DNA of 39,878 nucleotides, taken from an uncultured Variovorax sp. (GTDB taxonomy: Bacteria > Pseudomonadota > Gammaproteobacteria > Burkholderiales > Burkholderiaceae_C). Shown here piece after piece: positions 10,785 through 31,572 of this stretch (position 1 is the first letter of the stretch; the number at the start of each line of letters is the position of its first letter). The notes under the pieces were generated by a model that was not told the DNA's origin, did not search any database, and worked only from the letters and a program-made list of their open reading frames with translations. Made by a program: the position numbers and the translations under genes. Location of the stretch: positions 1 through 39,878 of the forward strand of contig CAJYQC010000252.1 of assembly GCA_913776885.1 (NCBI GenBank), in the 5' to 3' direction.

Positions 10785-10807
10785 AGAATCCCACGAGAAG
10801 AAAGAGC

Positions 10808-13399: not shown

Positions 13400-13808
13400 A
13401 TGTTTGCGGAGTCGATTGGCTGGACGTAGCTAGTCTGACCATCGAGCCAGCATTTCATCGTGCATGCGGGATCGAACTTGGATCGTTGACATTAACTGCG
13501 TACCTTTAAAACTCGACGGAGTGGCTTGTGTTTCGCGACCCCCGAAGACATGTCTTTGGGCAAGGCGGCACCCATCCGATAACTCACCTGCGGAACGCAC
13601 TACATATCGAGGTGCCTGTATCGAATCAAGGCCACGGATCGATCGGCTGCCAAGATCAATCGCCGTAATCACAGGATGCGTTGGCGCGCCAGCGCCCGAT
13701 TAATTGCAACAAGCTTGGCTGAACTAATTGTCAATGCAAGAGGGCTGAATTTCAGGTTTTGCTTGATTTAAAAAGCGCCGGGGTGGGTCATTTTTGCCTT
13801 TCACTATA

Positions 13809-16800
13809 AATGCCATGAGCAAAATCCTTTTTTATGTTCATTACAACAAGAACTCAGATCTGCATGCTCATGTTCTTTATCAGGTAAAAAATCTCAGGAA
13901 TATATTCGAGCGCGTCGTATTTGTTTCGAATAGTCCGCTGTCTTCTTCGGACAAGAGAGCGCTTTCGCCTTTTGTGGATGAGATCTTGGAGCGCGCGAAT
14001 GCGGGCTTCGATTTCTACGCATGGAAAGAAGCGATCGATCGTGAAGGGCGAGAAAATATTTCGGCCTATGACAGCGTAACCTTGATGAATGACACCTGCT
14101 TCGGGCCGTTGTTCGATCTTCGCCTGGCTTATGACAGGATGGCCCTAGACTCGTGTGATTTTTGGGGAATGATCAATCATCGCCGAGGCGAGGAAGTCAT
14201 TCGTGAATTGGAAACCAACATTCTGGAGCACGTGCAAAGCTTCTTTATGGTTTTCAAATCCCAAGTCACGCAATCTCCTGCCTGGCGGTCGTTCTGGCTA
14301 GAAATGGATTGCGAAACCGATGTATTCAAAGTTATTGCTAAATACGAGATACGCTTTACGCAAATCCTTCGTGATGCAGGATTTTCATACAAGGTGTTGC
14401 TCGATACACTCGATCTACCGCTTGCTCGTGAAGAGCTTTCATATGTGCCCGCGGACATCTGCGTCAACGAGCGGTTGCCGCTGCTAAAAATAAAGGCATT
14501 GCTTCAGCATAAAAATCCTAGACATGTTATTGATGAAATCGAGCGGGCATCCGGCTATCCTGTAGAATTGATTGAAAAATATATTTCCACGGATTTTCAG
14601 CCCGACAAGTCGATTTTGTATTGCGATAAAGCTTTGAATATTTATCGGCCGGCTTCTTTGCGGGCCGATGGCGATGAAAATGGCCTAATTGCAGTTCATG
14701 TTCATGTCTTCTATGTCGATGTGTGGAAAAAATACCTCGAATATCTGAAGGCCTGGGATTTTCGGTACGCGCTCTTCATAACTACCTCCTCAGAAAGCAA
14801 GGCGGAAGAGATTCGAGCTCTCCTGCCCCAAGCTGCTTCTGCTTCCGAAGTACGTGAGGTCATCGTGATTGAAAATCGGGGGCGTGATATTCTGCCGTGG
14901 ATTGCTATCTCGGAAAATTTGTCCAATTACGATTTTGTCTTGCACGCTCATACGAAAAAAAGTCCAACCGTCGCGGATTGGGTAGGTGCGTCCTGGCAGC
15001 AAGATATTTTTGATGCGCTGCTGCTGCAGGCTGGAAAAATAATTAAATCCTTTCAGGAAAACCCGGCTCTCGGTATCGTTATCCCCGATATTCCTCGTTT
15101 TTGGAGGTATGTCGCTCCGGTGCGACGTGAAACAGAGGCTCCTTTCATCGGCATGATGAACGACCTTTGGAGCCGGCTACGCTGTGAGAAAAAAGTCGAT
15201 TTCGAAAGCGCCTCGGCTTTCATCATGCCTTATGGCACCATGTTCTGGTACCGCCCAAATGCACTTGCAAGAATAAGCTCGCTGAGCTTAAGCGTTGATG
15301 AAGTTCCGATTGAACCGCTACCTGAACGGTCGGTCCTTCATGCGCTTGAGCGACTCATGGTGTATGTCGCTTGGGATGCGGGCTTTGACTACAAAATTGT
15401 CCCGTCCAAGGAAATTGCTCCTGGATTTATTGATGGCATCGTTCGCAATCGACAATTTGTGCATCAATCATCCGCCGAAGCAATTTCGGTACAGACTTCT
15501 GCATTTTTGGTTCAAGGGGAAGGCAATAAAAAAATGGAGATCAGTTTTATTCGACGAGTGGTTGCCAAGCTTCGGATCTTGGCGCGACCAAAGAAATTGA
15601 TAAAAATGATGACGCCATATGGCGCGGTCAGAATTTATCAAAAACTTCTGGAGCTTAAACGGGCGCGCGAGCAAGAAATACGCGAAAGCCAAGCTCGATC
15701 GGCGAGTGAAGGTCAGAGGACTGAGAGTGCTGTCCCGGCACTGCCATGCGTAAAAAGTGAGGAATATTGGCTTAGCACGCATCGGCATATGCACCCAATG
15801 AACATCGTGATCGATTCAAGTGGAGAGCGACGCCTGAATCTTGTTATTTCTAGCTTAGGAAGGGCCCAGCTTTTTGGTGGCATCGCTACTTGTACGGGGA
15901 TCGCCACCGCGCTTGCTCGAGCGCTCAGGCTACCGTTGCGCATTATTACGCGAGACGGTGGAGCGACCCAAGAGCAATATCTAGCGATCATGACCGCATT
16001 GGGCATAGAGCCGTGGGGAAATGTTCTTTTTTATTCGGATAGCTCCAGGGATGATCTGGGTCGAAACTCTCTTCCTGTGTATGCTTCGGATTCGGATATT
16101 TTTCTTGCGTCGTCTTGGTGGACCGCCACGGCATTGCGCAAAACTGTGAAGAGCGAGAACGTTTATCACATCATCCAGGAAGATGAATTGATGTTCTACC
16201 AGCGTGGCGATGATTACCTGGATTGCTGGAACGCGCTCAATTCGCCAAAAGCTAAATATATTATCAATAGCCAGTATCTGGCCGATTGGTTCAAAGGTGA
16301 GTACCCGCATATTTATAAAAATGGCGCGGTATTCGATCCGGTATTTTCGAAAAATACTTCCAAAGAGTTCCTGCGGAAAAAAACCTACAATCTTTTTTTC
16401 TATGCTCGGATGACCAATCCGCGCAATCTTTTTTGGTTCGGTACTCGCATCATTGATGAGTGCATTAAGTCTGGCGTCCTTGATCCGGTGGAATGGGATA
16501 TTTTCCTCGCGGGCGACGACTCTATTCCTCAGATTGAATTTTTCGGCGGGAAAAAGACAACTAATCTTGGTATTTTGAGTTGGGAAGAGTACAGAAATTT
16601 CTTGCAGGACGTCGATTTGGGTTTGTGTCTTATTCATACACCTCACCCAGGGTATCCTGTTTACGATGTGGCCAGCTCGGGAGGAGTGGCGGTCACCAAT
16701 ACGCTTTATACGAAGAACTCCTTTCCTTGCAGCAGTAATATCATCGCCTGCGACCTTTCAGATGATGCGTTCATGAGTGGAATGAAAAAGGCGGTGGCAT

Positions 16801-16910
16801 TGGCCAAGAATAACGTGCTGCGGAAAGAAAATTATCTTCAACAAAGCATTCCGTCCTCCTGGGAGGAATCGCTATCGGAGGTTGTTGAGTTTGTCAGGCA
16901 AAAATCCTGA
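13809..16910 (+). CDS. Large fusion glycosyltransferase: RgpF-like (rhamnan synthesis F) N-terminal region + WsaF-like GT C-terminal domain
   Basis: SKILFYVHYNKNSDLHAHVLYQVKNLRNIFERVVFVSNSPL, AGFDFYAWKEAI, SVTLMNDTCFGPLFDL; second module ...IENRGRDILPWI...YDFVLHAHTKKSP; C-terminal LFGGIATCTGIATALARAL...SSWWTATAL...FFYARMTNPRNLFWFG...TPHPGYPVYDVASSGGVAVTN. ORF open from 13794; ATG 13809-13817 region gives MSKILF. Confidence 0.8.
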   Translation, partial: NAMSKILFYVHYNKNSDLHAHVLYQVKNLRNIFERVVFVSNSPLSSSDKRALSPFVDEILERANAGFDFYAWKEAIDREGRENISAYDSVTLMNDTCFGPLFDLRLAYDRMALDSCDFWGMINHRRGEEVIRELETNILEHVQSFFMVFKSQVTQSPAWRSFWLEMDCETDVFKVIAKYEIRFTQILRDAGFSYKVLLDTLDLPLAREELSYVPADICVNERLPLLKIKALLQHKNPRHVIDEIERASGYPVELIEKYISTDFQPDKSILYCDKALNIYRPASLRADGDENGLIAVHVHVFYVDVWKKYLEYLKAWDFRYALFITTSSESKAEEIRALLPQAASASEVREVIVIENRGRDILPWIAISENLSNYDFVLHAHTKKSPTVADWVGASWQQDIFDALLLQAGKIIKSFQENPALGIVIPDIPRFWRYVAPVRRETEAPFIGMMNDLWSRLRCEKKVDFESASAFIMPYGTMFWYRPNALARISSLSLSVDEVPIEPLPERSVLHALERLMVYVAWDAGFDYKIVPSKEIAPGFIDGIVRNRQFVHQSSAEAISVQTSAFLVQGEGNKKMEISFIRRVVAKLRILARPKKLIKMMTPYGAVRIYQKLLELKRAREQEIRESQARSASEGQRTESAVPALPCVKSEEYWLSTHRHMHPMNIVIDSSGERRLNLVISSLGRAQLFGGIATCTGIATALARALRLPLRIITRDGGATQEQYLAIMTALGIEPWGNVLFYSDSSRDDLGRNSLPVYASDSDIFLASSWWTATALRKTVKSENVYHIIQEDELMFYQRGDDYLDCWNALNSPKAKYIINSQYLADWFKGEYPHIYKNGAVFDPVFSKNTSKEFLRKKTYNLFFYARMTNPRNLFWFGTRIIDECIKSGVLDPVEWDIFLAGDDSIPQIEFFGGKKTTNLGILSWEEYRNFLQDVDLGLCLIHTPHPGYPVYDVASSGGVAVTNTLYTKNSFPCSSNIIACDLSDDAFMSGMKKAVALAKNNVLRKENYLQQSIPSSWEESLSEVVEFVRQKS

Positions 16911-17067: not shown

Positions 17068-18399
17068 ATGAGTATGCGAGGCCGGCGCTTTGTGGAGTTC
17101 TGGAGGGAAAACGGCGCCAGCGCCGCCGTGAAGTTGATCCGAAAGAAACTGGGGGACGCCATCGCTGGGCGTGTCATATTCAGCGAGGAGGACAACGAGT
17201 CCAACGCCCAGGCGGTATCGCAGGTTTTGGCGAGTCGCTTCAAGTCTCAGCAGGCGCTCAAGGTATGCGAGGTCGCGCAACCGTCGGTGCGTCGAGTCAG
17301 CGTGGTGACGGACAGTATCGGCTCGGAGAGTTTGTTTGGCGGTGTGGGCACCGCTCTGTTGCTTTCCGCCCAACTGGCAAACAGGATGAACGCCGTGCTG
17401 CGGGTTGTGACAAGGAATGAGGTGCCATCGCCGGCGAATGCCTGGCAGATCCTCAACGCCTACGGGATCAAGCTTCAGCAGAACATCGAGTTCGCGTTTG
17501 CGCCGCCGAGAAGTGATCCGACGGCAACGCCGTCCGTCATTGACACAGTTCCTAGCCTGAGTGTTTACCCGGGGGAGATCTTCGTCACGACCTCTTGGTG
17601 GACTACTTCGGCCGCGCTCGCCAGCGTACCCGTCGCTTCGATCATTTACCTGTTGCAGGAAGACGAACGCATGTTCTATGCATTCGGCGAGGACCGGGTC
17701 CATTGCGAGCGAGTCCTGCGCAACCAAGACATCAGGTTTGTCGTCAACACACGATTGCTATATGAGCATCTGATGGCCACAGGCCTCGACCATCTAGGGC
17801 GCAACGGTTTCTGGTTCGAACCGGCATTTCCTCGCTCGTTGTTTCATCCGCGCCCTCGCGAGACGGGCGCCAAGAAGCGGTTTTTCTTTTACGCAAGGCC
17901 GAACAATCCACGCAATCTTTTCCATATTGGACTGGGCGTCATCGATCGCGCGGTGAACGAGGGCATCCTCGACTTGGCGCGGTGGGAGATATTCCTTGTT
18001 GGCAAGGACATCCCGCATGTGAAGTTTGGTGTGGACTACATTCCGCAGCGCTGCGAAGGCCTTGGGTGGGAGGCATATGCGGAACTCGCAGGGACCATCG
18101 ATCTCGGGTTGAGCTTGATGTATACGCCGCATCCCAGTTATCCGCCTTTCGATCTTGCCGCGAGTGGGGCGGTGGTCGTGACGAACAGCTTCGCCAACAA
18201 GCAGGACCTGTCGAGCTACTCGCCCAACATCCTGTGCGTCGAACTCGAGACCGAAGCCTTGCTGGGTGCGCTTCGGACCGGCGTGGCGATCGCCGACGAC
18301 CATGAGATCCGCGATCGCAATTTTGCCGCGAACACGTTGGGGACGGACTGGACTTCGGCGTTCGTCGGCGTACTAGGGGCGCTGGCCGTGACGCGCTGA
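17068..18399 (+). CDS. WsaF-like glycosyltransferase (stand-alone paralog of the upstream C-terminal domain)
   Basis: SLFGGVGTALLLSAQLANRM...TSWWTTSAAL...FFYARPNNPRNLFHIGLGVID...TPHPSYPPFDLAASGAVVVTN, collinear with the C-terminal third of the 13.8-16.9 kb product. Confidence 0.8.
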   Translation: MSMRGRRFVEFWRENGASAAVKLIRKKLGDAIAGRVIFSEEDNESNAQAVSQVLASRFKSQQALKVCEVAQPSVRRVSVVTDSIGSESLFGGVGTALLLSAQLANRMNAVLRVVTRNEVPSPANAWQILNAYGIKLQQNIEFAFAPPRSDPTATPSVIDTVPSLSVYPGEIFVTTSWWTTSAALASVPVASIIYLLQEDERMFYAFGEDRVHCERVLRNQDIRFVVNTRLLYEHLMATGLDHLGRNGFWFEPAFPRSLFHPRPRETGAKKRFFFYARPNNPRNLFHIGLGVIDRAVNEGILDLARWEIFLVGKDIPHVKFGVDYIPQRCEGLGWEAYAELAGTIDLGLSLMYTPHPSYPPFDLAASGAVVVTNSFANKQDLSSYSPNILCVELETEALLGALRTGVAIADDHEIRDRNFAANTLGTDWTSAFVGVLGALAVTR

Positions 18400-18588: not shown

Positions 18589-20052
18589 ATGAGCCCAGGT
18601 GAAATATCCAATGCAGGCGCTATGAATGCGCCCAATCGAGTCATTGCAGTAGACCTTGACGGCACGCTGATTCGCTCGGACATGCTTATCGAGAGCATTT
18701 TTCTTTTTCTCCGCTTCAACCCGCTGCGCATTTTTGAATTGGTTTTCTGGTTGCTGAGGGGCAAAGCGCATTTCAAGCAGAAGATCGCCGCGTCGGTCGG
18801 CTCAGACGTCCGAACTCTGCCCTACAACCAGAAACTCATCGACTGGCTCGTAGCGCAGCGCGCTGAGGGGGCAAAGCTCGTCCTGGCGACTGCGTCCGAG
18901 CTCCAACTGGCACGCAAAATTGCAGACCACCTGTCGATATTCGATGACGTGATCGGAACCCGCGATCTGAATTTGGCGGGGGCACACAAGCGCGATGCGC
19001 TTGTGTCTCGTCACGGTGAACACGGCTTTGAATACGTTGGGAATTCCTCGGCGGATCTCAGGGTCTGGGAGTCTGCTGCCATGGCGCATATCGTGAACCC
19101 GGAGCGAGGCGTTCTTGCGCGCGCGCATCGCACGGTTCGGGTCGGAGAGGTGTTCGAGGATCGGCCGGGTTACTTAAGGGTTCTGCGCAAGGCGCTCAGG
19201 CTGCATCAGTGGGCAAAGAACCTTCTGGTGTTCGTGCCGCTATTAGCGGCGCATAAGTTCACAAATCTTCATCTCGTAGCTGAAGGCCTGCTGGCGTTCC
19301 TGTGTTTTGGTGCCTGCGCGTCCAGTGTGTATCTTCTGAATGATTTACTCGATCTGCAGGACGATCGCCAGCACCGCACTAAGCGTAACCGGCCGTTGGC
19401 AGCAGGAACATTTTCCTTGTTCCACGCCATGTTGTGGATTCCTGCGCTGTTGGTCGTCGCATTCGCGATCGCGCTTCTTTGTTTGCCGTTGAAGTTTTCG
19501 CTGGTTCTGCTGGGCTACTATGTGTTGACACTGGCTTACTCGCTGGCGCTCAAGCGGGCGGTGATGGTTGATGTCGTCGTGTTGGCCATGCTCTACACCA
19601 CACGAGTAGTTGCAGGCGCTGCAGCAATGGCGTTGACGCCGACCTTCTGGATCTTGGCGTTTTGCATGTTCATCTTTCTCAGTTTGGCGCTGGTCAAGCG
19701 CTACACGGAGTTGTACGAGGCCCGGGAAAAAGGTGTGCAGGTCAAGGCGCCCGGCCGTGGCTATGTGGCGTCGGACTTCGAGTTGCTCGCGTCTCTGGGG
19801 GGCTCGGCCGGCTACCTCTCCGTGCTGGTGCTGGCGCTCTACATCAATGACCCGCAGTCACATGTACTCTATCGGCATCCGCATTGGCTGTGGGCCGCCT
19901 GCCCACTGCTGCTCTTCTGGCTGAGCCGCGTATGGATCATTGCGCATCGCGGGGAGATGCATGACGACCCCATCGTGTTCGCATTGCGTGACCGAATGAG
20001 TCGTTGCGTGTGCATCTGCTTCATTGCGATCTTTGGAGTTTCGGCTTTTTGA
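18589..20052 (+). CDS. HAD phosphatase-like domain fused to UbiA prenyltransferase (decaprenyl-phosphate phosphoribosyltransferase-like)
   Basis: N-term VIAVDLDGTLIRSD (HAD motif I), KLVLATASELQLA (motif II), GNSSADLRVWESA (motif IV); C-term RLHQWAKNLLVFVPLLAAHK...SVYLLNDLLDLQDDRQHRTKRNRPLAAG (UbiA NDxxDxxxD). Alternative start ATG 18622. Confidence 0.85.
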   Translation: MSPGEISNAGAMNAPNRVIAVDLDGTLIRSDMLIESIFLFLRFNPLRIFELVFWLLRGKAHFKQKIAASVGSDVRTLPYNQKLIDWLVAQRAEGAKLVLATASELQLARKIADHLSIFDDVIGTRDLNLAGAHKRDALVSRHGEHGFEYVGNSSADLRVWESAAMAHIVNPERGVLARAHRTVRVGEVFEDRPGYLRVLRKALRLHQWAKNLLVFVPLLAAHKFTNLHLVAEGLLAFLCFGACASSVYLLNDLLDLQDDRQHRTKRNRPLAAGTFSLFHAMLWIPALLVVAFAIALLCLPLKFSLVLLGYYVLTLAYSLALKRAVMVDVVVLAMLYTTRVVAGAAAMALTPTFWILAFCMFIFLSLALVKRYTELYEAREKGVQVKAPGRGYVASDFELLASLGGSAGYLSVLVLALYINDPQSHVLYRHPHWLWAACPLLLFWLSRVWIIAHRGEMHDDPIVFALRDRMSRCVCICFIAIFGVSAF

Positions 20053-21374
20053 TGTCCACGCTTGGCTCTTGGGGACGATATCCCCGCCACCCCCAGAAGG
20101 CGCATCCGATCGCTTGGCCTTTCGACGTCGCAGGTACTTTGTCGCGTGCGCGAAGCCAGGGCAGTGGGACGACGCTCGGATATGGTCGGGGGCGCAGCTA
20201 CGGTGATTCCTGCCTTGCGGAGTCAGGCCATGTGATCGCTGTCGCGGGGATGGACCGCCTGATTGAAGCCGACTGGCAAACGGGCGTGGTACTGCTTCAG
20301 GCAGGGATGACATTGAACGGGCTGATCGGTCTTGCACTGCCGCATGGCTGGTTCTTACCCGTTACGCCCGGAACGAAGTTCGTGACGCTGGGCGGCGCCG
20401 TCGCAAACGATGTGCACGGCAAGAATCACCATGTGATGGGCACATTCGGCCGGCATGTGCGTCGGATCGTTCTCTATCGATCCGACGCAGGCATCTGTGA
20501 ATGCTCTCCTTCGGTCAATCAGGAACTCTTCAGCGCAACGATTGGCGGTTTGGGTCTGACCGGGATCGTGCTCGCTGTCGAAATTCAGCTTCGTGCCGTA
20601 CGCTCCAGTGATATCGAGCAGACGAGCATCAAGTTCGGCAACCTAGATGAATTCTTTGCGTTGTCAGCACAATTCGACTCGAAATTTGAATACACGGTCT
20701 CATGGGTCGACTGCCTGGCAAGTGGCGCGAACGCTGGTCGTGGACACTATATCGGTGGAAATCATGCGGCTGGAGGCGAGCTTGAAGTGGCAGGGGTCAA
20801 CCACAAGCGCGTGCCGATCGACCCTCCGTTCTCTCTAGTCAATGCGTTGACCTTGAGGTTATTCAACACTTTGTACTACCAGCGCCAGCAGCGCAAAGTC
20901 GTCGAGACGCGTGTCAATTACGACCCTTTCTTCTATCCTTTGGACAAACTGCTGCAGTGGAATCGCATCTACGGCAGGGCCGGTTTCCAGCAGTACCAAT
21001 GTGTGATTCCGCCCGATGTCGGACGTGATGCTGTGGCTGCCATTCTCCAAGAGACCGCGCGCAATGGCGCGGGCTCTTTCCTGGCGGTGTTGAAGCAGTG
21101 CGCCGACATCGAATCTCCTGGATTGCTGTCGTTCCCTAAGGCCGGCGTTTCGCTGGCGTTAGATTTTGCCCAGCACGACGCATTGAACGCGCGACTGTTC
21201 ACCCGCCTTGATGCGGTAGTACATGAAGCGGGGGGACGACTTTATCCGGCGAAAGATGCGCATATGAGCGCACAGCATTTTCAAGCAGCTTATCCCGCAT
21301 GGGCGCAGTTGGAGTCGCTGCGCGATCCTTCACTTATGTCGCGATTCTGGCGACGCGTGACCGTGACTTCCTGA
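20052..21374 (+). CDS. DprE1-like FAD-binding decaprenylphosphoryl-beta-D-ribose oxidase homolog
   Basis: LGYGRGRSYGDSCLAESGHVI...LPHGWFLPVTPGTKFVTLGGAVANDVHGKNHHVMGTFGRHVRRI...ELFSATIGGLGLTGI...GGRLYPAKDAHMSAQHF; closely follows the DprE1 motif order. ATG overlaps the upstream stop. Confidence 0.9.
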   Translation: MSTLGSWGRYPRHPQKAHPIAWPFDVAGTLSRARSQGSGTTLGYGRGRSYGDSCLAESGHVIAVAGMDRLIEADWQTGVVLLQAGMTLNGLIGLALPHGWFLPVTPGTKFVTLGGAVANDVHGKNHHVMGTFGRHVRRIVLYRSDAGICECSPSVNQELFSATIGGLGLTGIVLAVEIQLRAVRSSDIEQTSIKFGNLDEFFALSAQFDSKFEYTVSWVDCLASGANAGRGHYIGGNHAAGGELEVAGVNHKRVPIDPPFSLVNALTLRLFNTLYYQRQQRKVVETRVNYDPFFYPLDKLLQWNRIYGRAGFQQYQCVIPPDVGRDAVAAILQETARNGAGSFLAVLKQCADIESPGLLSFPKAGVSLALDFAQHDALNARLFTRLDAVVHEAGGRLYPAKDAHMSAQHFQAAYPAWAQLESLRDPSLMSRFWRRVTVTS

Positions 21375-21385
21375 TTGGTTTGATC

Positions 21386-22132
21386 ATGAAAAAGAAGAAC
21401 GTATTCATCATCGGCGCGACCTCCGGGATTGCTGAAGCTGTTGCCCGACGATACGCGATGCAGGGAAGCAGTTTCGTGCTTGTGGCGCGCAACGATGCAA
21501 AGCTTGCCGTCATTGCCTCTGACTTGGTCGCCCGTGGCGCGACCGCGGTACGAACGCAGGTCTGGGCGGGTGACGATCTTGCTTCCTTGCCCAGACTTAC
21601 CAACTCCGCTTGGGAGACGCTGGGAACCGTGGACCTCGCATTGATTGCGCATGGCACATTGCCGGATCAGGTGCGTGCCCAGGACGACCTGCCCTACGCA
21701 GTGGAGCAGTTTCGAACCAACAGCGAAAGCGCCGTGGCGTGCATGCTCGCAATGACAGGCCATTTCGAAGCACAGGGCCATGGCGTGCTGGCCGTCATTG
21801 GATCGGTGGCTGGCGATCGCGGACGTGGCAGCAACTATGTATACGGTGCTGCGAAGTCTGCCGTCGATGCCTTTGCTTCCGGATTGCGCGCACAGCTTTT
21901 CAAGAAAGGCGTGCACGTCCTCACGATCAAGCCGGGTTTTGTTGCTACACCTATGACGGCGGAACTCGACCTGCCGGCGGCATTGACGGCGACCCCGGAC
22001 CGGATCGCTGCTGATATCGAGAAGGCCGTGACATCACGCCGAAACGTACTCTATACCCCGTGGTTTTGGGCCTGGATCATGCGGATCATCCGTTTTCTGC
22101 CGACAGCCTTATTTAAGCGCTCCAATCTCTAG
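21386..22132 (+). CDS. DprE2-like short-chain dehydrogenase/reductase
   Basis: KKKNVFIIGATSGIAEAVARRYA (NAD Rossmann), YVYGAAKSAVDAFASGLRAQLFKKGVHVLTIKPGFVATPMT (YxxxK active site); located directly after the DprE1-like gene. Confidence 0.85.
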   Translation: MKKKNVFIIGATSGIAEAVARRYAMQGSSFVLVARNDAKLAVIASDLVARGATAVRTQVWAGDDLASLPRLTNSAWETLGTVDLALIAHGTLPDQVRAQDDLPYAVEQFRTNSESAVACMLAMTGHFEAQGHGVLAVIGSVAGDRGRGSNYVYGAAKSAVDAFASGLRAQLFKKGVHVLTIKPGFVATPMTAELDLPAALTATPDRIAADIEKAVTSRRNVLYTPWFWAWIMRIIRFLPTALFKRSNL

Positions 22133-22144
22133 AAGCGTGTTGCG

Positions 22145-24079
22145 ATGATCGACCATGCGCGCCCGATATCCAAGCGGCTTGTGCCGCTGCTTCAGTTCAC
22201 TGCGTTCGCGTCGGCCTTGCTCGGCCTGAAGCTTTGGCTCATTCATTCCTATGGCAACGACGTGCCTTACTGGGATCAATGGGACGGCGAAGCTGCAAGA
22301 CTGTACATACCGTTCCTGCGAGGGGAACTTTCGTGGGGCGAGTTGTTCGCTCCTCATAACGAGCATCGCATCTTCACGACACGTGTTCTTGGTCTGTTGC
22401 TGCTGCAGCTCAACGGGTTATGGAGCCCCCTGCTCGAGATGGCGGTCAACGCCGTGCTGCACGTGTTCGCATTGGGAACTGCGGTATGGTTGATGAGTAA
22501 GGCTGTTGGCAAAGGGGCGCTCGCGCCGCTGTTGCTGTTCACGCTGCTTTTGTTCGCCATCCCGTTCGGATGGGAAAATACGCTGGCTGGATTTCAAGCC
22601 CAGTTCTATTTTGTTCTCCTGTTCAGCGTGCTGTCACTGTGGTGGCTCGTTGTGGCCGAGGCGATGAGCCGTTGGTGGTGGGTCGGCGTGGCAAGCACTA
22701 TTGCTGCGTATTTTTCGCTCGCATCCGGTGTTTTCGCGCTTGCCGCAGCGGCGATCGTTTTATTGATCAGGGCCGCCATCGTGTCCAGGCGTTGGCAAGA
22801 ACTGGTTGGCGCGTTGCTGCTGCTGGTCTTGTTCGTAGGAGGCGCATTCGCGACACCCGTGCTGGAGCAGCATGCAAGGTTGAAGGCATCCGATGCGTCG
22901 CATTTGTTTTCGGCACTCAGCCTTGTTCTGGCATGGCCCTTCCAAATTTCCACGGAAGCCATCCAAGCGGCAGTCAAGGATGGACCATCGCTGAAAGAAT
23001 GGCTGTTGGTGATGGTAAGGAACCTGCCCGCGACGGTGCTGGTGTGCTACGTGTTGTGGAAACGGCCGGCGCGTGGCAATCCCGCGTGGTTTCTTGTCGC
23101 ATTAGCGGTGTGGTGTGGTGGGCAGGCCGTTGCGGTTGCCTACGGCCGGGCGGATGACGTACTCACTTCTCGCTACCTCGATCTGCATGCGATGGGCGTG
23201 CTCGTGAACTTCGCGTGTTTACTCGCCATCTGTAACTGTGTGAGGCAAAGACTTCGACTGGGCGTCTTCGCGGGGGGATGCCTGTGGGTGTTCGCGATGG
23301 TGAGCGCTCTTTTTGGCGCTGCGGGAACAGAGCTTTCCTCGGCCCTGGAGAAAAAGCGAGACACGTCCCTTGCGCAGGAAGCCAACGTCGATGCCTATCT
23401 GGTGGGTAAGGATCTCAAAAGATTCCAAGCCTTGCCCTTTTTGCAGCTCCCTTATCCGGATGCGAACCGCTTGGCGAAGCTTCTCGATACTCCAGACATG
23501 CGGCGCATTCTTCCCAAGAACCTGCAGCGTCAATTGGAGCCGGCCGCTGTGACGCCTTCGACGGGGAGCGTCTTCGAGCGTGGAGGGGCCTTTCATACCG
23601 TGCCATCGTGCCATTGCATTTTCTGGGGAAGCTACGGTCCGACGCAGGACGCTGCCGTGGGAGAGACCATCTTGAGATACGACCCGATCGCGGCCTCCCA
23701 GAGATCGAGCGGCGTCTTCGCGATGAAGGTTGCTGGCTATCCCGCAGGAGCAGGAAGCATCGAAGTCATCCAGGGAGCCAAGGTGACGCGCTTGCGGTTT
23801 ACGAAGGATCCGCGCGAAACCTGGGTGGAGCGTTATTTCTCTGTGAGGCCGGGCGAATCATTTTTTATACGCTTGGTTGATCGAAGTGCGGGGTCGTGGT
23901 TGGCCGTGACCCAGCCTGTTGCAGTGGGTCGGCTGGACCGCTGGGTGTCTGTTTCGCTCGATAGCTACGGCACATTTTTCGCAATCGGGATGTCCGCGAT
24001 GTGGTTGCTGTTGCTAGTCCGATGGCGGGCCGTCAATGAAGCGACTTCGCGCGCTCCGGATCCTGATCGCGTCTCGTGA
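22145..24079 (+). CDS. Polytopic membrane protein, candidate GT-C fold glycosyltransferase
   Basis: 644 aa; multiple TM segments; acidic first extracytoplasmic loop GNDVPYWDQWDGEAARLY...FAPHNEHRIFTTRVL; soluble C-terminal domain then a final TM. Confidence 0.7.
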   Translation: MIDHARPISKRLVPLLQFTAFASALLGLKLWLIHSYGNDVPYWDQWDGEAARLYIPFLRGELSWGELFAPHNEHRIFTTRVLGLLLLQLNGLWSPLLEMAVNAVLHVFALGTAVWLMSKAVGKGALAPLLLFTLLLFAIPFGWENTLAGFQAQFYFVLLFSVLSLWWLVVAEAMSRWWWVGVASTIAAYFSLASGVFALAAAAIVLLIRAAIVSRRWQELVGALLLLVLFVGGAFATPVLEQHARLKASDASHLFSALSLVLAWPFQISTEAIQAAVKDGPSLKEWLLVMVRNLPATVLVCYVLWKRPARGNPAWFLVALAVWCGGQAVAVAYGRADDVLTSRYLDLHAMGVLVNFACLLAICNCVRQRLRLGVFAGGCLWVFAMVSALFGAAGTELSSALEKKRDTSLAQEANVDAYLVGKDLKRFQALPFLQLPYPDANRLAKLLDTPDMRRILPKNLQRQLEPAAVTPSTGSVFERGGAFHTVPSCHCIFWGSYGPTQDAAVGETILRYDPIAASQRSSGVFAMKVAGYPAGAGSIEVIQGAKVTRLRFTKDPRETWVERYFSVRPGESFFIRLVDRSAGSWLAVTQPVAVGRLDRWVSVSLDSYGTFFAIGMSAMWLLLLVRWRAVNEATSRAPDPDRVS

Positions 24080-24120
24080 CGGTTTTCAATTGTTTTGCGT
24101 CTCTTTAGTGAATGGTTTCC

Positions 24121-25053
24121 ATGAAAAAAATTGTGTTGCCGGGAGGCGCTGGCCTTGTTGGTCAAAACCTTGTCGCCCGATTGCGCGCCGAAGGCTACTC
24201 CGACATCGTCGTGATCGACAAGCACAAAGAAAATCTGGCGACGCTCAAAAGCGTACAGCCTGATGTCGTCGTCGAACTCGCTGATCTGTCCAAACCCGGC
24301 GATTGGCAGCGCCACTTCGACGGTGCGGCGGTGGTAGTGATGCTGCAGGCCCAGATCGGCGGTATTCACTACCAAGAGTTCGTGGATAACAATGTTAATT
24401 CCACTCGTCTGATCCTGGATGAAATCCGCAAAAACAAGATTCCTCAACTGATCCACATCAGTTCCTCTGTCGTCGAGTCGGTAGCCGACGATTTCTACAC
24501 GAGGTCGAAAAAAGAGCAGGAAGAAATGGTCCTCGCGAGCGGTATCGAATGCCCCGTCCTTCGGCCTACGCTGATGTTCGGCTGGTTCGACCGCAAGCAT
24601 CTCGGCTGGCTGTCGCGCTTCATGGCCAAGCAGCCGGTGTTTCCCGTGCCGGGCGACGGGCGTTTCATGCGGCAACCGCTCTACGTGGGCGACTTCTGCA
24701 ACGTGATCATCAGTTGCATCGAGAACAATGTCAGGCAAGGCATCTTCAACATCTCGGGGCATGAAAAGGTCGACTACATCGACATCATTCGCGAGATCAA
24801 GCGAGCCACCAAGGCCAAGGCGAAGATCGTCAAGATTCCTTACGGGCTGTTCTACAGCTTGCTGTGGATCTGGGCGCTGTTCGACAGGAATCCTCCATTT
24901 ACGACACAGCAGCTGCAGGCATTGGTCGCCAAGGACGAATTCGAGGTCATCGACTGGCCCGGGATTTTTGGTGTGCGAAGCACGCCTTTCGCCGAAGCGA
25001 TCAATGAAACCTTCAACGATCCCGTCTACAGCAACGTCGTTCTGGACTTCTAG
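24121..25053 (+). CDS. NAD-dependent epimerase/dehydratase family protein (extended SDR)
   Basis: MKKIVLPGGAGLVGQNLVARLRAEGYSDIVVIDKH; LIHISSSVVESVADDFYTRSKKEQEEMV; RQPLYVGDFCNVIISC. Confidence 0.85.
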   Translation: MKKIVLPGGAGLVGQNLVARLRAEGYSDIVVIDKHKENLATLKSVQPDVVVELADLSKPGDWQRHFDGAAVVVMLQAQIGGIHYQEFVDNNVNSTRLILDEIRKNKIPQLIHISSSVVESVADDFYTRSKKEQEEMVLASGIECPVLRPTLMFGWFDRKHLGWLSRFMAKQPVFPVPGDGRFMRQPLYVGDFCNVIISCIENNVRQGIFNISGHEKVDYIDIIREIKRATKAKAKIVKIPYGLFYSLLWIWALFDRNPPFTTQQLQALVAKDEFEVIDWPGIFGVRSTPFAEAINETFNDPVYSNVVLDF

Positions 25054-25056
25054 GCC

Positions 25057-26379
25057 ATGACAGAGCCACAAGAACCACAACGTATCGCCGTGCTCGGCGC
25101 CGGGCCCATGGGGCTGGCAGTCGCCTACCAACTCGTGCTCGACGGCCATCGCCCGGTGATATTCGAAGCCGATGATCGCGTCGGGGGAATGACTGCGGCA
25201 TTCGATTTCAGCGGGTTGCAGATCGAGCGCTACTACCACTTCCACTGCATCTCGGACAGTGCGTTCCTGCAGGTCCTCGACGAACTGGGGCTGTCCAAAA
25301 AAATGAACTGGGTAGCTACCAAGATGGGCTACTGGTATCAGAACCGGTTGCAGCCTTGGGGCAATCCGATGGCCTTGCTGACCTTCAAGGGGCTCGGTTG
25401 GATTGCGAAGTTTCGCTACGGATTGCATGCGTTTCTGTCGACAAAGCGGAATGACTGGAAGCCGCTGGATCATGTGGAGGCGACGGGTTGGATCAAGCGC
25501 TGGGTCGGCAATGAAGCGTACGAAGTGCTTTGGCGGCGGTTGTTCGACTACAAGTTCTACGACTACACCTCCAACCTGTCGGCGGCATGGATCTGGAGCC
25601 GCATCCGTCGCATCGGACGCTCGCGCTATAACTTGTTCGAGGAGAAGCTGGGCTATCTTGAGGGAGGGTCGCAAACTTTGCTCGATGCACTGAAGTCGGC
25701 GATCGTGACCCGTGGCGGGGAGCTTCGGCTGTCGACCCCGGCGTCCGAGGTGGTCGTCGAGCAGGGCGAGGTCAAAGGCGTCAGAACGGCAGCGGGCTTC
25801 GAAGCTTTCGACAAGGTCGTCAGCACGGTTCCCCTGCCTTATGTGCCACGGCTGATCCCCGGCCTGCCGGCATCGACCGCCGAGGCATTTGCCGCGCTCA
25901 AGAACATCGCGGTGGTTTGTGTGATCGCGAAGCTGAAAAAGCCGCTCACCGAAAACTTCTGGCTCAACATCAACGACCCGGATATGGACATCCCGGGTCT
26001 GGTGGAGTACAGCAACCTTCGGCCGCTCGATCCCCATGTGCTGTATGTGCCGTTCTACATGCCTGGAGAGCATCCGAAGTTCAAGGACGCCGATGAGGTC
26101 TTCCTCGACAAGGTCAGGAAATACTGCATGAAGATCAATCCGGACCTTGCGCCGGAGGATTTCGTCGACATGCGGGCCAGTCGCTATCGCTACGCGCAGC
26201 CGATTTGCGATCCTGGCTATCTTGATCGCCTGCCGCCTGCGAAGCTGCCGGTCAAAGGCCTATGGGTTGCGGATACGTCCTACTACTACCCCGAAGACCG
26301 CGGTATTTCCGAGAGCATTGGCTTCGGGCGGAAGCTTGCCAAGGCTGCCGTCGCCGGGACGGACATGCCGGCATGCTGA
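25057..26379 (+). CDS. FAD/NAD(P)-dependent oxidoreductase, amine-oxidase/UDP-galactopyranose-mutase-like
   Basis: IAVLGAGPMGLAVAYQLVLDGHRPVIFEADDRVGGMTAAFDFSGLQIERYYHFHC; C-terminal GLWVADTSYYYPEDRGISESIGFGRKLA. Confidence 0.82.
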   Translation: MTEPQEPQRIAVLGAGPMGLAVAYQLVLDGHRPVIFEADDRVGGMTAAFDFSGLQIERYYHFHCISDSAFLQVLDELGLSKKMNWVATKMGYWYQNRLQPWGNPMALLTFKGLGWIAKFRYGLHAFLSTKRNDWKPLDHVEATGWIKRWVGNEAYEVLWRRLFDYKFYDYTSNLSAAWIWSRIRRIGRSRYNLFEEKLGYLEGGSQTLLDALKSAIVTRGGELRLSTPASEVVVEQGEVKGVRTAAGFEAFDKVVSTVPLPYVPRLIPGLPASTAEAFAALKNIAVVCVIAKLKKPLTENFWLNINDPDMDIPGLVEYSNLRPLDPHVLYVPFYMPGEHPKFKDADEVFLDKVRKYCMKINPDLAPEDFVDMRASRYRYAQPICDPGYLDRLPPAKLPVKGLWVADTSYYYPEDRGISESIGFGRKLAKAAVAGTDMPAC

Positions 26380-26768
26380 ATAAGCAATTCATCCGATTTC
26401 TGGTCGCGGGTGGGATTGCCGCCGCTGCGAACTATGGATCGCGCTTCCTGTTCAGCACATGGCTGAGCTATGGCCCGGCGATCGTGCTGGCGTACCTGGT
26501 CGGAATGGGAGTGGCGTTCGTCCTGATGCGCCAGCATGTGTTCTCCGCCACGGGTGCCGCTTTGGGGCCGCAGGTCGTCAAGTTTGTCGCAGTCAACCTT
26601 CTGGCGGTGGTGCAGACACTGGTCATCAGCCTCGTCCTGGCGCGCTGGGTGCTACCGGGCCTCGGCATCGTGACCCACGCCGAAGCCATCGCTCATCTGG
26701 CGGGAGTCCTCGTTCCTGTGGCGACCAGCTATTTCGGCCATCGGATGCTGACGTTCAGGAAAGCGTGA
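26373..26768 (+). CDS. GtrA family membrane protein
   Basis: MLNKQFIRFLVAGGIAAAANYGSRFLFS...VAFVLMRQHVF...VPVATSYFGHRMLTFRKA; four TM segments, classic GtrA F(V/L)xxGGxxxxxxxxxxF and C-terminal NFxxxRxxxF-like ending. Confidence 0.9.
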   Translation: MLNKQFIRFLVAGGIAAAANYGSRFLFSTWLSYGPAIVLAYLVGMGVAFVLMRQHVFSATGAALGPQVVKFVAVNLLAVVQTLVISLVLARWVLPGLGIVTHAEAIAHLAGVLVPVATSYFGHRMLTFRKA

Positions 26769-27763
26769 GCACGCCGGGCGTCGAGTCGAAGGCGTTGCCG
26801 GGCAAGACGATGTCCCGGCTGCTGCGCTGGATGATCCTGTTTGTGCTCCTGGGCGCCACGCTGAGCCTGGGCGGCATGATCTGGAGCGGGTGGAATGAAG
26901 TCACCCGCGCGCTCGCGCGGCTGGGCATTCTCTTGCTGGTTGGCACGGCGGTCGTCGCCAGCCTTGCATATGTGATTCGATTCTTGCGATGGCACCTGGC
27001 CCTTCGGTGCTTGGGGCATCTTGTTCCCCAACGGATCAATCTCGCAATCTACCTCTCGGGTTTGGCTCTCACTACGTCCCCGGGCAAACTGGGGGAGACC
27101 ATCCGATCCTTGTTTCTGCGGCCGTTCGGTGTGCCGGTGGCCAAGAGCCTCGGGGCTTTCCTCGCAGATCGTTTGTCCGACGTTGTAGGCGTGTGCCTGC
27201 TTGGAGCCGTTGCGGGGTTGCTCGCACGAGGCACGTTGAATGTCGCTAGCCTCGTTCTGGGGGGCGTCTTGGCGGGGAGTTTTGTGTTCCGAGGCCTGGT
27301 TCGAACGCCGTGGATGTTCGACCGCGCGATGGCAATTGCCGGCAGATGGGGTCTTGCGCCAGGCCGTGTTGCCGTAGAGGCGCTCGCATACTGGGCACAG
27401 ATCTGGACATTACGCAAGGCAATATTGTTTGCGCTTATGGCGTCGTTGGCCTATGGGATCCAAGCGGCAGTGTTCTCGACCCTTTGTAATGCGTTGCAGT
27501 TGCCAATGCAGCCGCCGGTCGCTTTGGAGATTTTTGTGAATGCCACGCTGTTCGGTGCTGCAAGCATGGTTCCAGGAGGGCTTGGAACAATGGAGGCATC
27601 ACTTGTTCTTCAACTGATGGGGCATGGCATTCAAAAGGCTGATGCGGTTGCCATAGCCATAGCAACCCGATGCGTCACGCTTTGGTGCGGTGTTTTCATA
27701 GGCCTGATTGCCTTCGCACGCATTTGCCTGCGCGCCGAACCGAAGGCCCCTTCTTTGACCTGA
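26765..27763 (+). CDS. Lysylphosphatidylglycerol synthase TM / UPF0104 family flippase-like protein
   Basis: GTG start overlapping gtrA stop; RFLRWHLALRCLG...YLSGLALTTSPGKLGETIRSLFLRPFGVPVAKSLGAFLADRLSDVVGV...MVPGGLGTMEASLVLQLMGHG (PGGLGxxE motif). Confidence 0.85.
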   Translation: MSTPGVESKALPGKTMSRLLRWMILFVLLGATLSLGGMIWSGWNEVTRALARLGILLLVGTAVVASLAYVIRFLRWHLALRCLGHLVPQRINLAIYLSGLALTTSPGKLGETIRSLFLRPFGVPVAKSLGAFLADRLSDVVGVCLLGAVAGLLARGTLNVASLVLGGVLAGSFVFRGLVRTPWMFDRAMAIAGRWGLAPGRVAVEALAYWAQIWTLRKAILFALMASLAYGIQAAVFSTLCNALQLPMQPPVALEIFVNATLFGAASMVPGGLGTMEASLVLQLMGHGIQKADAVAIAIATRCVTLWCGVFIGLIAFARICLRAEPKAPSLT

Positions 27764-28553: not shown

Positions 28554-29357
28554 TCAGAGCCAGTAGACGACGCGACGGCGGTATTTGACGAACAGCGCGC
28601 TCGCGACGGAGAGGCACAGCACAGTCCAGAAACCGATGCCGATCCAGCTGTGGAGATGGGCTTCTCCCCCCATGAGCGGAGTGCGCAACAGGTCGAGCAT
28701 CTGCGCGAAAGGATTCCAAAGCACGTACTTGGCACGACCAGGAAGGTTCTCGGGCAGCCAGAACACGGGGGTCAGGAACATCAGCATCTGCATGATGCTG
28801 GTGACGATCTGGGTCACGTCGCGGTAGCGGGTGCAGATGAGTCCGAGCAGCAGGCCGAGCGCATGCGCATTGATCACCAGGATGAGGAAGGCGGGAATGA
28901 CCAGAAGGACCGACCACGAAAGCGAGATGCCGGCCCAGAGCGCCACGGGGATGTAGAGCACGATCTGGTGGGCGAACTGGATCAGGTTGCGTGCCAGGGC
29001 GCGCCAAACGAAGAGGCTGATCGGAAAGTAGCCTTGCTTCAGGTAGTTGGACGACCCCACGAAGGCATTGCAGGCGTCAGTGACGATGGTGGAGAACAGG
29101 CCCCAGAAGATCACGCCGAGCGCGAGGTGGGGAAAGAATTTGTCCAGTTGGGTGCCGAAGAGCGATGCATACAGCGGGCCCATGCCGCCGATCATGATGC
29201 CCATGCTCAGCGTGAGCCAGATCGGGCCGAGCATGGAGCGCCTATAGCGCAAAACGATGTCGAACCAGGCGAGGGTCCACCAGATGTCCGTGCGGCGTGT
29301 GCCTTCCCACCAGTCGGCCCACGCGCTGCGGTGAAGGTTGGAGTGAACTTGGCTCAT
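28554..29357 (-). CDS. Polysaccharide ABC transporter permease (Wzm/KpsM-like)
   Basis: MSQVHSNLHRSAWADWWEGTRRTDIWWTLAWFDIVLRYRRSMLGPIWLTLSMGIMIGGMGPLY...; six TM; adjacent to the ATPase. Confidence 0.9.
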   Translation of the reverse strand: MSQVHSNLHRSAWADWWEGTRRTDIWWTLAWFDIVLRYRRSMLGPIWLTLSMGIMIGGMGPLYASLFGTQLDKFFPHLALGVIFWGLFSTIVTDACNAFVGSSNYLKQGYFPISLFVWRALARNLIQFAHQIVLYIPVALWAGISLSWSVLLVIPAFLILVINAHALGLLLGLICTRYRDVTQIVTSIMQMLMFLTPVFWLPENLPGRAKYVLWNPFAQMLDLLRTPLMGGEAHLHSWIGIGFWTVLCLSVASALFVKYRRRVVYWL

Positions 29358-29700
29358 GTGAATCGATGCGAGGCGGCGGCGGCGGAGGAGGAGCGCCCAA
29401 TGGCGTCTTCGTCCGAACGGCTCCGGGATGCCACCGGCCAAGCACGAGTGTCTTGCAGGGGCGCCCGGTGCGGCCTCATTTCTTGTCCTTTGTGTGATCT
29501 GGGTGATTTTACCGGGCGAGGTGAACGGGCCATGTCTCCCACGACATGAGAGGCGAGAGGCGCCGCATCGAGAGGCAAAGGGGGATGCGAAGATAATCGC
29601 CCGCTGGCTGACTCCGGGCCTTGCTCCTCCTTCAGGCCGGCTGTACGGCTCCAATCCTGCAAAAAGGTTCCCTCCTTGCCGTCTTGCCGGCAAGTCGTCT

Positions 29701-31572
29701 ATGAAATCTGTATCTCGGCTCTTCGACTTCTTCCTCACCGTGCTCTGGAGAACCCCCGGTGTCGGCGGGCGGCTCCAGCGCGCTTGGCGGATGTTCCTGA
29801 AGGCGGGCTGGCGGGGCATCAAGTGGGAGCTCGGGCGGCGAGTCACGGGCTTCAACGACTATCCGCGCTGGGTCCGGGAGCATGACACGCTGACGCCGGC
29901 CGAGAGCGCCCGGCTGGCCCAGCGTGCGGCCTCCATGGCCGACAAACCGCTGATTTCCGTGCTCATGCCCTCCTACAACCCCAATCCGGCGTGGCTGCGG
30001 GAGGCGATCGAGTCGGTGCGGGCGCAGATATATACGAACTGGGAGTTGTGCATCGCGGACGATGCATCCCCCTCGCAGGAGGTGCGGGCCATCCTGAAGT
30101 CCTATGCGGAGAGCGACCCCCGCATCAAGGTCGTCTTCCGACCCAAGAACGGGCATATCTCCGCCTCTTCGAACAGCGCGCTAGAACTGGTCTCGGGCAC
30201 ATGGATCGCGCTGATGGACCATGACGACCTGCTGCCGACGGATGCCCTGTTTTGGGTGGCCGACTGCATCGCCAACCACCCCGATGTGCAGTTGATCTAC
30301 TCCGACGAGGACAAGATCGACGAGTCGCTGACTCGCTCGGGTCCGTATTTCAAGTGCGACTGGAACGCCGATCTTTTCCGCTCGCAGAACATGTTCAGCC
30401 ACCTGGGCGTGCTTTCAACGGATCTCGTTCGCGCCGTGGGCGGGTTCCGCCTTGGGCTTGAAGGCTCGCAGGACTGGGACCTCGTCATTCGATGCATGGA
30501 GCGCATCGAGCCCCGGCAGGTGCGCCACATCCCGAGAGTGCTCTACCACTGGCGCGTACACGCCGAGAGCACCGCAAAGTCGATGGACGCCAAGCCCTAT
30601 GCCGTGGTGGCCGGCGAGCGCGCGCTCAACGAGCATTTCGAGCGTACGCAGACACGCGCGAGGGCGGAGCACATCGGTTTCGGATACCGTGTGCACTACG
30701 CGTTGCCCGACGCGCCGCCATTGGTGTCGCTGGTCATCCCCACGCGAAATGCCGCTGCCTCCTTGCGCAGATGTGTGGACTCGATCCTCGCGAAGACCGC
30801 CTACCCGCACTACGAGATCGTCGTGGCCGACAACGCCTCGGATGACAGCGCGGCCCAGACCTGCCTCGACGCGCTGGCCAAGATGAAGAACGTGCGCGTG
30901 CTCAGACATGCCAATAGGCAAGGTGCGGCCGCTTTGTGCAATGCAGCGGTCGAGGGTGCAACAGGGGAGGTCGTCGCGCTGATCGATGACAGCCTCGAAG
31001 TCATGTCGCCCGAGTGGCTGGCCGAAATGGTCAGCTTGGCGCTTCAGCCCGGCGTTGGTGCGGTCGGGGCGCGCCTCATGGACCGCCGCCGGATCCTGAC
31101 TCACGCCGGCATCATCCTGGGCCTGGGGGTGGATGGCGTGGCTGGGTGCTCGCATCGCGGAATGCCCGCGGGGCGTGAAGGCTATGGAGGTCGCGCCGCG
31201 CTGATCCAGTCGCTGTCTGCCGTCAGCTCGGCCTGCCTGGTCATCCGGAAGGATCGTTACCTTGCCGTCGGAGGCCTTGATGGAAACCATCTGAAAGAGG
31301 CGTTTGCCGATGTGGATTTCTGCCTGCGCCTGGGAGAAGCCGGCCTGCGTACACTCTGGACGCCTTATGCCGAAATGCTCGACCACAGGGGCGCAGCCGC
31401 CCGTGAAAGGAAGGCCGGCGAGCCAGCCAGTGCCTCCTATCTGGAAGATGTGGCCTACATGAAGCGCCGATGGAGCCCTGCCCTGGCGAACGACCCGGCG
31501 TACAGCCCCAATCTCATGCTCGAGCGCGAGGACTTCAGCTACGCCTGGCCCCCCCGCCTGGCGCCGGTCTGA
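29701..31572 (+). CDS. Tandem GT2 glycosyltransferase with two GT-A domains
   Basis: First domain PLISVLMPSYNPNPAWLREAIESVRAQIYTNWELCIADDAS...IALMDHDDLLP; second domain PLVSLVIPTRNAAASLRRCVDSILAKTAYPHYEIVVADNASDD...FADVDFCLRLGEAGLRTLWTPYAEMLDHRG. Confidence 0.88.
   Translation: MKSVSRLFDFFLTVLWRTPGVGGRLQRAWRMFLKAGWRGIKWELGRRVTGFNDYPRWVREHDTLTPAESARLAQRAASMADKPLISVLMPSYNPNPAWLREAIESVRAQIYTNWELCIADDASPSQEVRAILKSYAESDPRIKVVFRPKNGHISASSNSALELVSGTWIALMDHDDLLPTDALFWVADCIANHPDVQLIYSDEDKIDESLTRSGPYFKCDWNADLFRSQNMFSHLGVLSTDLVRAVGGFRLGLEGSQDWDLVIRCMERIEPRQVRHIPRVLYHWRVHAESTAKSMDAKPYAVVAGERALNEHFERTQTRARAEHIGFGYRVHYALPDAPPLVSLVIPTRNAAASLRRCVDSILAKTAYPHYEIVVADNASDDSAAQTCLDALAKMKNVRVLRHANRQGAAALCNAAVEGATGEVVALIDDSLEVMSPEWLAEMVSLALQPGVGAVGARLMDRRRILTHAGIILGLGVDGVAGCSHRGMPAGREGYGGRAALIQSLSAVSSACLVIRKDRYLAVGGLDGNHLKEAFADVDFCLRLGEAGLRTLWTPYAEMLDHRGAAARERKAGEPASASYLEDVAYMKRRWSPALANDPAYSPNLMLEREDFSYAWPPRLAPV

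Follow-up and report, generated by a model that had tools for sequence, protein, structure and literature searches.

A predicted lipid-linked arabinose pathway with a conserved three-gene add-on in an O-antigen-type locus of Variovorax

In Citrobacter, alpha-ribofuranose (Ribf) or xylofuranose (Xylf) is added outside the cell to an O antigen exported by an ATP-binding cassette (ABC) transporter, and the addition uses a lipid-linked donor, a flippase and a glycosyltransferase of the GT-C fold (Kelly et al. 2024, PMC11127046, cited here and below from its main text). The O1/O2 loci combine a HAD-UbiA protein, a flippase (predicted there), a GT-C enzyme with a carbohydrate-binding module (CBM), an epimerase that determines the sugar, and the ABC-exported O antigen. 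Assays identified C. youngae ORF15 as a polyprenyl-phosphoribose synthase that includes a phosphatase domain, and homologues of DprE1/E2 are reported in systems whose glycans contain arabinofuranose (Araf). The words mutase and flavo are absent from the main text of that paper. Here, we describe a cassette of eight genes, all on the forward strand at positions 18589-27763 of a stretch of 39,878 bases (hereafter the window) from contig C252 of an uncultured Variovorax, a soil bacterium whose genome comprises 5.48 Mb in 625 contigs.

The arabinose part of this cassette is the known Gram-negative pathway of the decaprenylphosphoryl-arabinose (DPA) type. An epimerase (Epi), a flavoprotein (Flav) and a small membrane protein of the GtrA family, in the second half of the cassette, form a conserved add-on without an assigned job, and it is this part that appears undescribed. 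A preliminary description of the window had instead regarded the pairing of DPA synthesis with an ABC-exported O antigen as new. We rejected this claim, as the concept, including DprE1/E2 for Araf, is already set out in PMC11127046 and the locus is an instance of that described kind. The analysis thus separates the known part, i.e. lipid-linked pentose donors made from phosphoribosyl pyrophosphate (PRPP) for O antigens, from a three-gene block that is tied to the donor pathway across Alpha-, Beta- and Gammaproteobacteria.

The predicted arabinose pathway and the putative transferase

Open reading frames and family matches bear out the eight co-directional genes with overlapping, abutting or closely spaced ends that had been noted at first. 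The ATG of the DprE1-like gene shares 1 bp with the stop of the HAD-UbiA gene, the start of GtrA overlaps Flav by 7 bp, and the UPF0104 gene begins at a GTG that overlaps the GtrA stop. The functions given to the first three proteins rest on homology with characterised enzymes. In the family-model search, the HAD-UbiA protein matched NF006088 with 642 bits, above the cut-off. It has an N-terminal HAD phosphatase fused to a C-terminal UbiA domain, as in synthases of the ORF15 type. The best other UbiA model was decaprenyl-phosphate phosphoribosyltransferase (DPPRS; 143 bits), the remaining UbiA-type models reached at most 45 bits, and the UbiA half matches the solved M. tuberculosis DPPRS (PDB 8j8j, E 8e-28). 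By family scores, the domain groups with the phosphoribosyl clade and not with the quinone-type enzymes. The protein keeps D22 (the HAD nucleophile), N251-D252-D255-D259 (the NDxxDxxxD loop) and R371/E374 (the R..E loop), which correspond to all the residues tested in C. youngae ORF15 (PMC11127046). We predict that it is a polyprenyl-phosphoribose synthase with a phosphatase domain, of the ORF15 type.

The oxidase and the short-chain dehydrogenase/reductase (SDR) that follow match the mycobacterial DprE1 and DprE2 families, and not those of non-DPA enzymes, by family scores. The oxidase scored 337 bits with NF053785 (next family 39 bits) and E 5e-64 with PDB 4aut. It keeps the FAD-site residues His122/Lys124 and the catalytic Lys401, but carries Ala at the position of the Cys in the mycobacterial VCVDF motif, so that covalent inhibition by benzothiazinones is not expected. 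The SDR scored 302 bits with NF005489, above the cut-off of that model.

The fourth protein had no match in Pfam or NCBIfam, and its profile had none among PDB sequences. Foldseek with its AlphaFold model (predicted local distance difference test, pLDDT, 86) returned the EmbA-EmbB arabinosyltransferase as the best PDB match (E 1e-5, the only one below E 0.001), followed by ArnT and oligosaccharyltransferases, and CBM-type jelly rolls matched the C-terminal domain. Residues D44, W46, E73-H74 and R343-Y344 are invariant in 11 relatives. They recall, by pattern and not by alignment, D31/E34/Y35, H106 and R349-Y350 of the Citrobacter GT136 enzyme ORF12. Relatives at five further loci (L037, L038, L040, L041 and L042) carry the motifs PYWDQWDGE and HNEHR, and one locus has two of them in tandem.

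Co-occurrence of Epi, Flav and GtrA with DprE1

We analysed the co-occurrence of the cassette genes in a class sample of 274 genomes, 53 of which have DprE1 and 12 Flav. All seven DprE1 loci with Flav also have Epi, and six have GtrA. Where Flav is missing (46 DprE1 loci), there is no Epi (0/46) and a single weak match to GtrA. We then combined this sample with the loci of phylum, order and family surveys, leaving out the window itself, which gave 26 DprE1 loci where Flav is present and 46 where it is not. Epi occurs at 24/26 of the former and 0/46 of the latter (p 4e-17), the counts for GtrA are the same (24/26 versus 0/46, p 4e-17), and rhamnose or rhamnan genes occur at 6/26 versus 0/46 (p=0.0015), p-values that are only a guide because the sampling differed between the two sets and related genomes do not count as independent. 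Hence, the co-occurrence with rhamnan genes raised in the preliminary description does recur, but in a minority of loci. UPF0104, tried as a marker of DPA-only loci, was dropped since it is equally common in both classes (7/26 with the block, 12/46 without).

On the DprE1 tree, the block must have been gained or lost nine times, and well-supported branches force at least six of these events, so that its link with DprE1 does not result from a single inheritance. The block is an optional addition that most DprE1 loci lack, and Epi at DPA loci is always accompanied by Flav. Gene order is kept at 20 of 22 loci: HAD-UbiA, DprE1, DprE2, zero to two polytopic proteins (523-792 aa), Epi and Flav, with GtrA nearly always after Flav. 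The other two loci place the DprE pair last. The GT-C candidate of the window occupies the variable slot between DprE2 and Epi. Constant genes thus flank a variable transferase, which fits one donor and many acceptors.

Carriers that can be named include Rhodopseudomonas infernalis and Stenotrophomonas tumulicola (L036, L039), Rhizobium tumorigenes, a Cupriavidus identified by 16S, and the conjugative plasmid pDG3-1a of Agrobacterium salinitolerans, where the genes lie beside rfbA and a rhamnan synthesis gene. On plasmid plas2 of Burkholderia stagnalis YJ-2, six cassette genes adjoin isonitrile synthase genes. In this cluster (L149:331-15739), the isonitrile synthase genes are of the PvcA type and are accompanied by genes for an EryCIII-like glycosyltransferase and for a protein of 811 aa with no family match; its product is possibly a glycosylated isonitrile that carries an unusual pentose. 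The block may thus matter for glycosylated metabolites too.

Possible functions of Epi and Flav

By its motifs, Epi is an intact extended SDR of the GalE type, with a Gly-rich NAD motif, Ser-Tyr-xxx-Lys and an Asp at the end of the second strand, and is a predicted epimerase. G11/G14/G17, D36, S117-S119, Y129 and K133 are invariant in 11 relatives. Flav matches NF005560 (PRK07233) with 559 bits, above the cut-off. It had been called UGM-like, i.e. similar to UDP-galactopyranose mutase (UGM), which holds at the level of a shared FAD fold superfamily. The closest folds to its AlphaFold model (pLDDT 91) are phytoene desaturase (TM 0.83) and protoporphyrinogen oxidase (0.77), with UGM at 0.75, and its Pfam matches (PF01593, PF01266 and PF13450) do not include the UGM family. 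A 210-residue stretch of E. coli UGM matches the Flav profile with 47 bits, and hhalign gives a probability of 97.6 at 18 percent identity; the UGM sequence used agrees letter for letter with PDB 1i8t. We therefore rejected Flav as a member of the UGM family and kept UGM only as a chemical analogy. The modelled fold, in the amine-oxidase/phytoene-desaturase/UGM superfamily, does not by itself decide among mutase, oxidase and lipid desaturase.

Outside the genus, 44 Flav loci were surveyed: DprE1 is adjacent at 26 and a GtrB-type GT2 gene at 14, so that 40/44 adjoin a polyprenyl-phosphate-sugar pathway. The other four (L078, L083, L141, at a contig end, and L213) adjoin neither. Flav is thus associated with both kinds of polyprenyl-phosphate sugar. 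The loci with a GtrB-type gene and no DPA genes (L084, L085, L086, L148, L183, L184, L186, L188, L191-L194, L215 and L216) sometimes include UPF0104 or an extended SDR, and a lipid-linked hexose remodelling system is a possible reading of them.

These patterns suggest the following route. The HAD-UbiA enzyme would couple PRPP to undecaprenyl phosphate (undP) and strip the 5-phosphate, giving undP-D-Ribf, and DprE1 and DprE2 would invert C2 to give undP-D-Araf. Epi and Flav would then convert undP-D-Araf further, most likely by altering the sugar itself, as their association and chemistry suggest. GtrA, with or without UPF0104, would flip the final product, and the GT-C enzyme with its CBM-like tail would move the pentose onto the exported rhamnan; flippases and acceptor are proposed from context and precedent (PMC11127046). 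The preliminary description had D-Araf itself as the sugar that is linked to the lipid, flipped and transferred in the periplasm. D-Araf fits best as an intermediate, which is probably converted further by Epi and Flav, because Flav, Epi and GtrA co-occur with DprE1 and 40 of the 44 Flav loci adjoin a polyprenyl-phosphate-sugar pathway. Since most DprE1 loci lack this optional block, the sugar that is transferred here is probably a product of further conversion. We give a probability of about 0.65 to the whole reading: an L-rhamnan made in the cytoplasm, exported by Wzm/Wzt and decorated in the periplasm with a polyprenyl-phosphate-borne pentose remodelled by Epi and Flav.

Several observations weigh against this reading. 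The DprE1-like oxidase, with its 337 bits, is under the NCBIfam equivalog cut-off of 500, a value that was not reached in any of the 53 class-sample genomes with DprE1, and the SDR scores 179 bits with the DprE2 model NF053786, under its cut-off of 250. At the five loci given above, the GT-C relatives have no UbiA or DprE gene closer than about 10 kb, so that the GT-C family is not specific to arabinose and may use other donors. Rhamnose genes are found at only 6/26 of the surveyed extended loci. The extended set was partly found via the search for Flav, and the contrast of 26 with 46 loci mixes two samplings.

Plain undP-D-Araf might instead go onto the rhamnan, Epi and Flav being mere neighbours that make a nucleotide-linked backbone sugar. 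This would agree with the link between DprE1/E2 systems and Araf-containing glycans (PMC11127046) and with the 46 of 53 DprE1 loci of the class sample that manage without Epi or Flav. Yet the three add-on genes track DprE1 through repeated gains and losses, and a role in the backbone would not follow the DPA genes in this way. The tracking spans O-antigen-type loci, the Burkholderia isonitrile cluster and plasmids of Rhizobium and Agrobacterium, and Flav without DPA mostly adjoins a GT2 gene of the polyprenyl-phosphate-hexose-synthase type. We thus regard this alternative as unlikely. It is also conceivable that Flav modifies the polyprenyl chain, as a desaturase or saturase might, and so marks a dedicated carrier pool, while Epi alone alters the pentose, e.g. 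at C3 like Citrobacter ORF13. That its best fold is an isoprenoid enzyme (phytoene desaturase, TM 0.83 versus 0.75 for UGM) and that it adjoins pentose- and hexose-phosphate polyprenol pathways alike is what one might see for a lipid-directed enzyme. However, we saw no independent sign of carrier modification at these loci, Epi at DPA loci never comes without Flav, and C3 epimerisation of D-Araf would give lyxofuranose, which is in no solved carbohydrate structure according to the main text of PMC11127046; a lipid-directed Flav is therefore quite improbable. That Flav makes no product itself and merely serves DprE1 or Epi as a redox partner or regenerator seems very improbable: it does share an operon with a flavin oxidase and NAD enzymes, but 46 surveyed DprE1 loci lack it and it is also found without DprE1, beside GtrB-type GT2 genes.

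Within the preferred reading of a remodelled donor, one version specifies the chemistry. Flav would turn the furanose into a pyranose on polyprenyl phosphate (undP-D-arabinopyranose), a change that frees the 4-OH, so that Epi could invert C4. As inversion of D-arabinose at this carbon gives L-xylose, the product would be undP-L-xylopyranose (L-Xylp). This version would explain the pairing of Epi and Flav with DPA genes and their presence in rhamnan loci, and would fit the non-stoichiometric beta-L-Xylp on L-rhamnose of Ralstonia solanacearum (PMC10450222). It would also fit the L-rhamnan of Xanthomonas campestris pv. begoniae, which is partially L-xylosylated according to a title cited in PMC5786101. 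In a survey of 260 genomes from one family (that of genome G637), which may include Ralstonia, Flav was confined to 6 of 25 genera, and the survey lends the L-xylose version no support. In the open-access literature, we found neither a biosynthetic route to L-xylose nor a lipid-linked mutase. We hold this version as tentative and rather doubtful. If true, it would provide a PRPP-based route to the L-xylose side chains of L-rhamnan O antigens and the first ring-form mutase for lipid-linked sugars, and in the GtrB loci, proteins of this Flav family would produce lipid-linked hexofuranoses. More generally, if Epi and Flav remodel lipid-linked sugars, they would represent a general class of donor-remodelling enzymes. 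The origin of rare pentoses, such as the L-xylose of O antigens in Ralstonia and Xanthomonas, could be accounted for in this way, and glycan side chains would become easier to predict from genomes.

Locus setting and comparison with known systems

The cassette lies inside a rhamnan and ABC-exporter locus, as the preliminary description had proposed, with rhamnose synthesis and rhamnosyltransferase genes upstream, and Wzt, Wzm and a PF00953 transferase downstream (Table 1). A methyltransferase-like gene is also upstream, listed between the rml genes and the RgpF-WsaF fusion. From its families, the gene anatomy is that of an L-rhamnan which is assembled in the cytoplasm and then exported through an ABC transporter, i.e. 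an O-antigen-type locus. Judged by its length, Wzt seems to be without a C-terminal carbohydrate-binding domain; such glycan-binding domains go with chain terminators. The G+C content is about 0.70 at both ends of the window and falls to 0.48-0.61 between 12 and 28 kb, a usual sign of an imported surface-glycan locus.

Table 1. Genes of the cassette and of the surrounding locus, with positions in the window.
Feature	Positions	Strand	Prediction and family evidence
rmlB, rmlD, rmlA, rmlC	8821-12252	+	dTDP-L-rhamnose synthesis; PF16363, PF04321, PF00483, PF00908
RgpF-WsaF rhamnosyltransferase fusion	13794-16910	+	PF05045 436 bits, PF22772, PF21374
WsaF-type rhamnosyltransferase	17068-18399	+	PF22772 153 bits, PF21374
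HAD-UbiA fusion	18589-20052	+	predicted polyprenyl-phosphate 5-phosphoribosyltransferase and 5'-phosphatase (undP-D-Ribf from PRPP); UbiA and HAD, NF006088
DprE1-like FAD oxidase	20052-21374	+	predicted undP-Ribf 2-oxidation; FAD_binding_4, NF053785
DprE2-like SDR reductase	21386-22132	+	predicted to yield undP-D-Araf; adh_short, NF005489
GT-C-fold glycosyltransferase candidate, 644 aa	22145-24079	+	C-terminal CBM-like domain; AlphaFold/Foldseek
Epi, extended-SDR sugar epimerase (predicted)	24112-25053	+	add-on block; PF01370 (Epimerase)
Flav, PRK07233 FAD protein	25057-26379	+	add-on block; NF005560, Amino_oxidase
GtrA-family small membrane protein	26373-26768	+	proposed flippase of the final undP-linked donor; PF04138
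UPF0104/LPG_synthase_TM membrane protein	26765-27763	+	second flippase candidate; PF03706 109 bits, TIGR00374 62.5 bits (above cut-off)
Wzt-like ABC ATPase, short, 233 aa	27849-28550	-	PF00005
Wzm-like ABC-2 permease	28554-29357	-	PF01061; ORF opens further upstream, ATG at 29357 (start scan)
Three GT2-containing genes	29428-31572, 31583-32566, 32588-33337	+, +, -	PF00535/PF13641/PF13632
WecA/WbpL-type initiating phosphoglycosyltransferase	33382-34479	+	PF00953 116 bits

The same operon is present in two genomes of the same genus (G010, locus L044, on two contigs; G034, locus L045, on one), and six of its genes (all but the GT-C and UPF0104 genes) recur with their order kept in other proteobacteria. 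The cassette is thus neither a chance arrangement nor an assembly artefact. DNA of a genome from this genus matches V. paradoxus replicons at about 90 percent along part of its length, which makes Variovorax the probable genus. Epi of G010 (L044:2688-3780) is split over two frames, by a frameshift or a sequencing error, and the rest of that operon looks intact. Other genomes of this genus also have another type of HAD-UbiA gene (L048-L059, e.g. L053:8829-12141), which is not accompanied by DprE1 and probably represents an undP-ribose system. A small SMR/ArnF-like flippase precedes it in the two loci examined, and a 492-aa membrane protein follows in L053.

The likeness to the mycobacterial pathway (Rv3806c, Rv3807c, DprE1/DprE2, Rv3789, AftA/Emb) lies in the predicted sequence from PRPP through lipid-linked D-Ribf to D-Araf, in GT-C enzymes and in a small membrane protein as flippase candidate. 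Unlike in mycobacteria, the phosphatase here is of the HAD type and fused to UbiA, and DprE1 is without the conserved active-site Cys. We know of no Epi or Flav in the mycobacterial DPA pathway. Pilin arabinosylation in Pseudomonas PA7 and the noe genes of Azorhizobium share Gram-negative DPA synthesis with this locus, but their acceptors are pilin and a Nod factor, and to our knowledge neither has an Epi-Flav-GtrA block.

The cassette also resembles ORF12-15 of Citrobacter youngae O1/O2, a three-component system that adds pentofuranose outside the cytoplasm. As there, the window combines a predicted lipid-linked pentose synthase and a putative GT-C enzyme with an ABC-exported O-antigen locus. 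The HAD-UbiA fusions have the same tested residues, and a lipid-linked pentose is epimerised (a prediction here). The GT-C protein is likened to the GT136 enzyme ORF12 by fold and C-terminal CBM-like tail only. The two systems differ in the flippase, which is of the MATE type in Citrobacter whereas GtrA and UPF0104 are the candidates here, and in the sugar-modifying enzymes: O2 has a single epimerase for Xylf, while the Variovorax cassette has DprE1/E2 and, in addition, the Epi-Flav pair.

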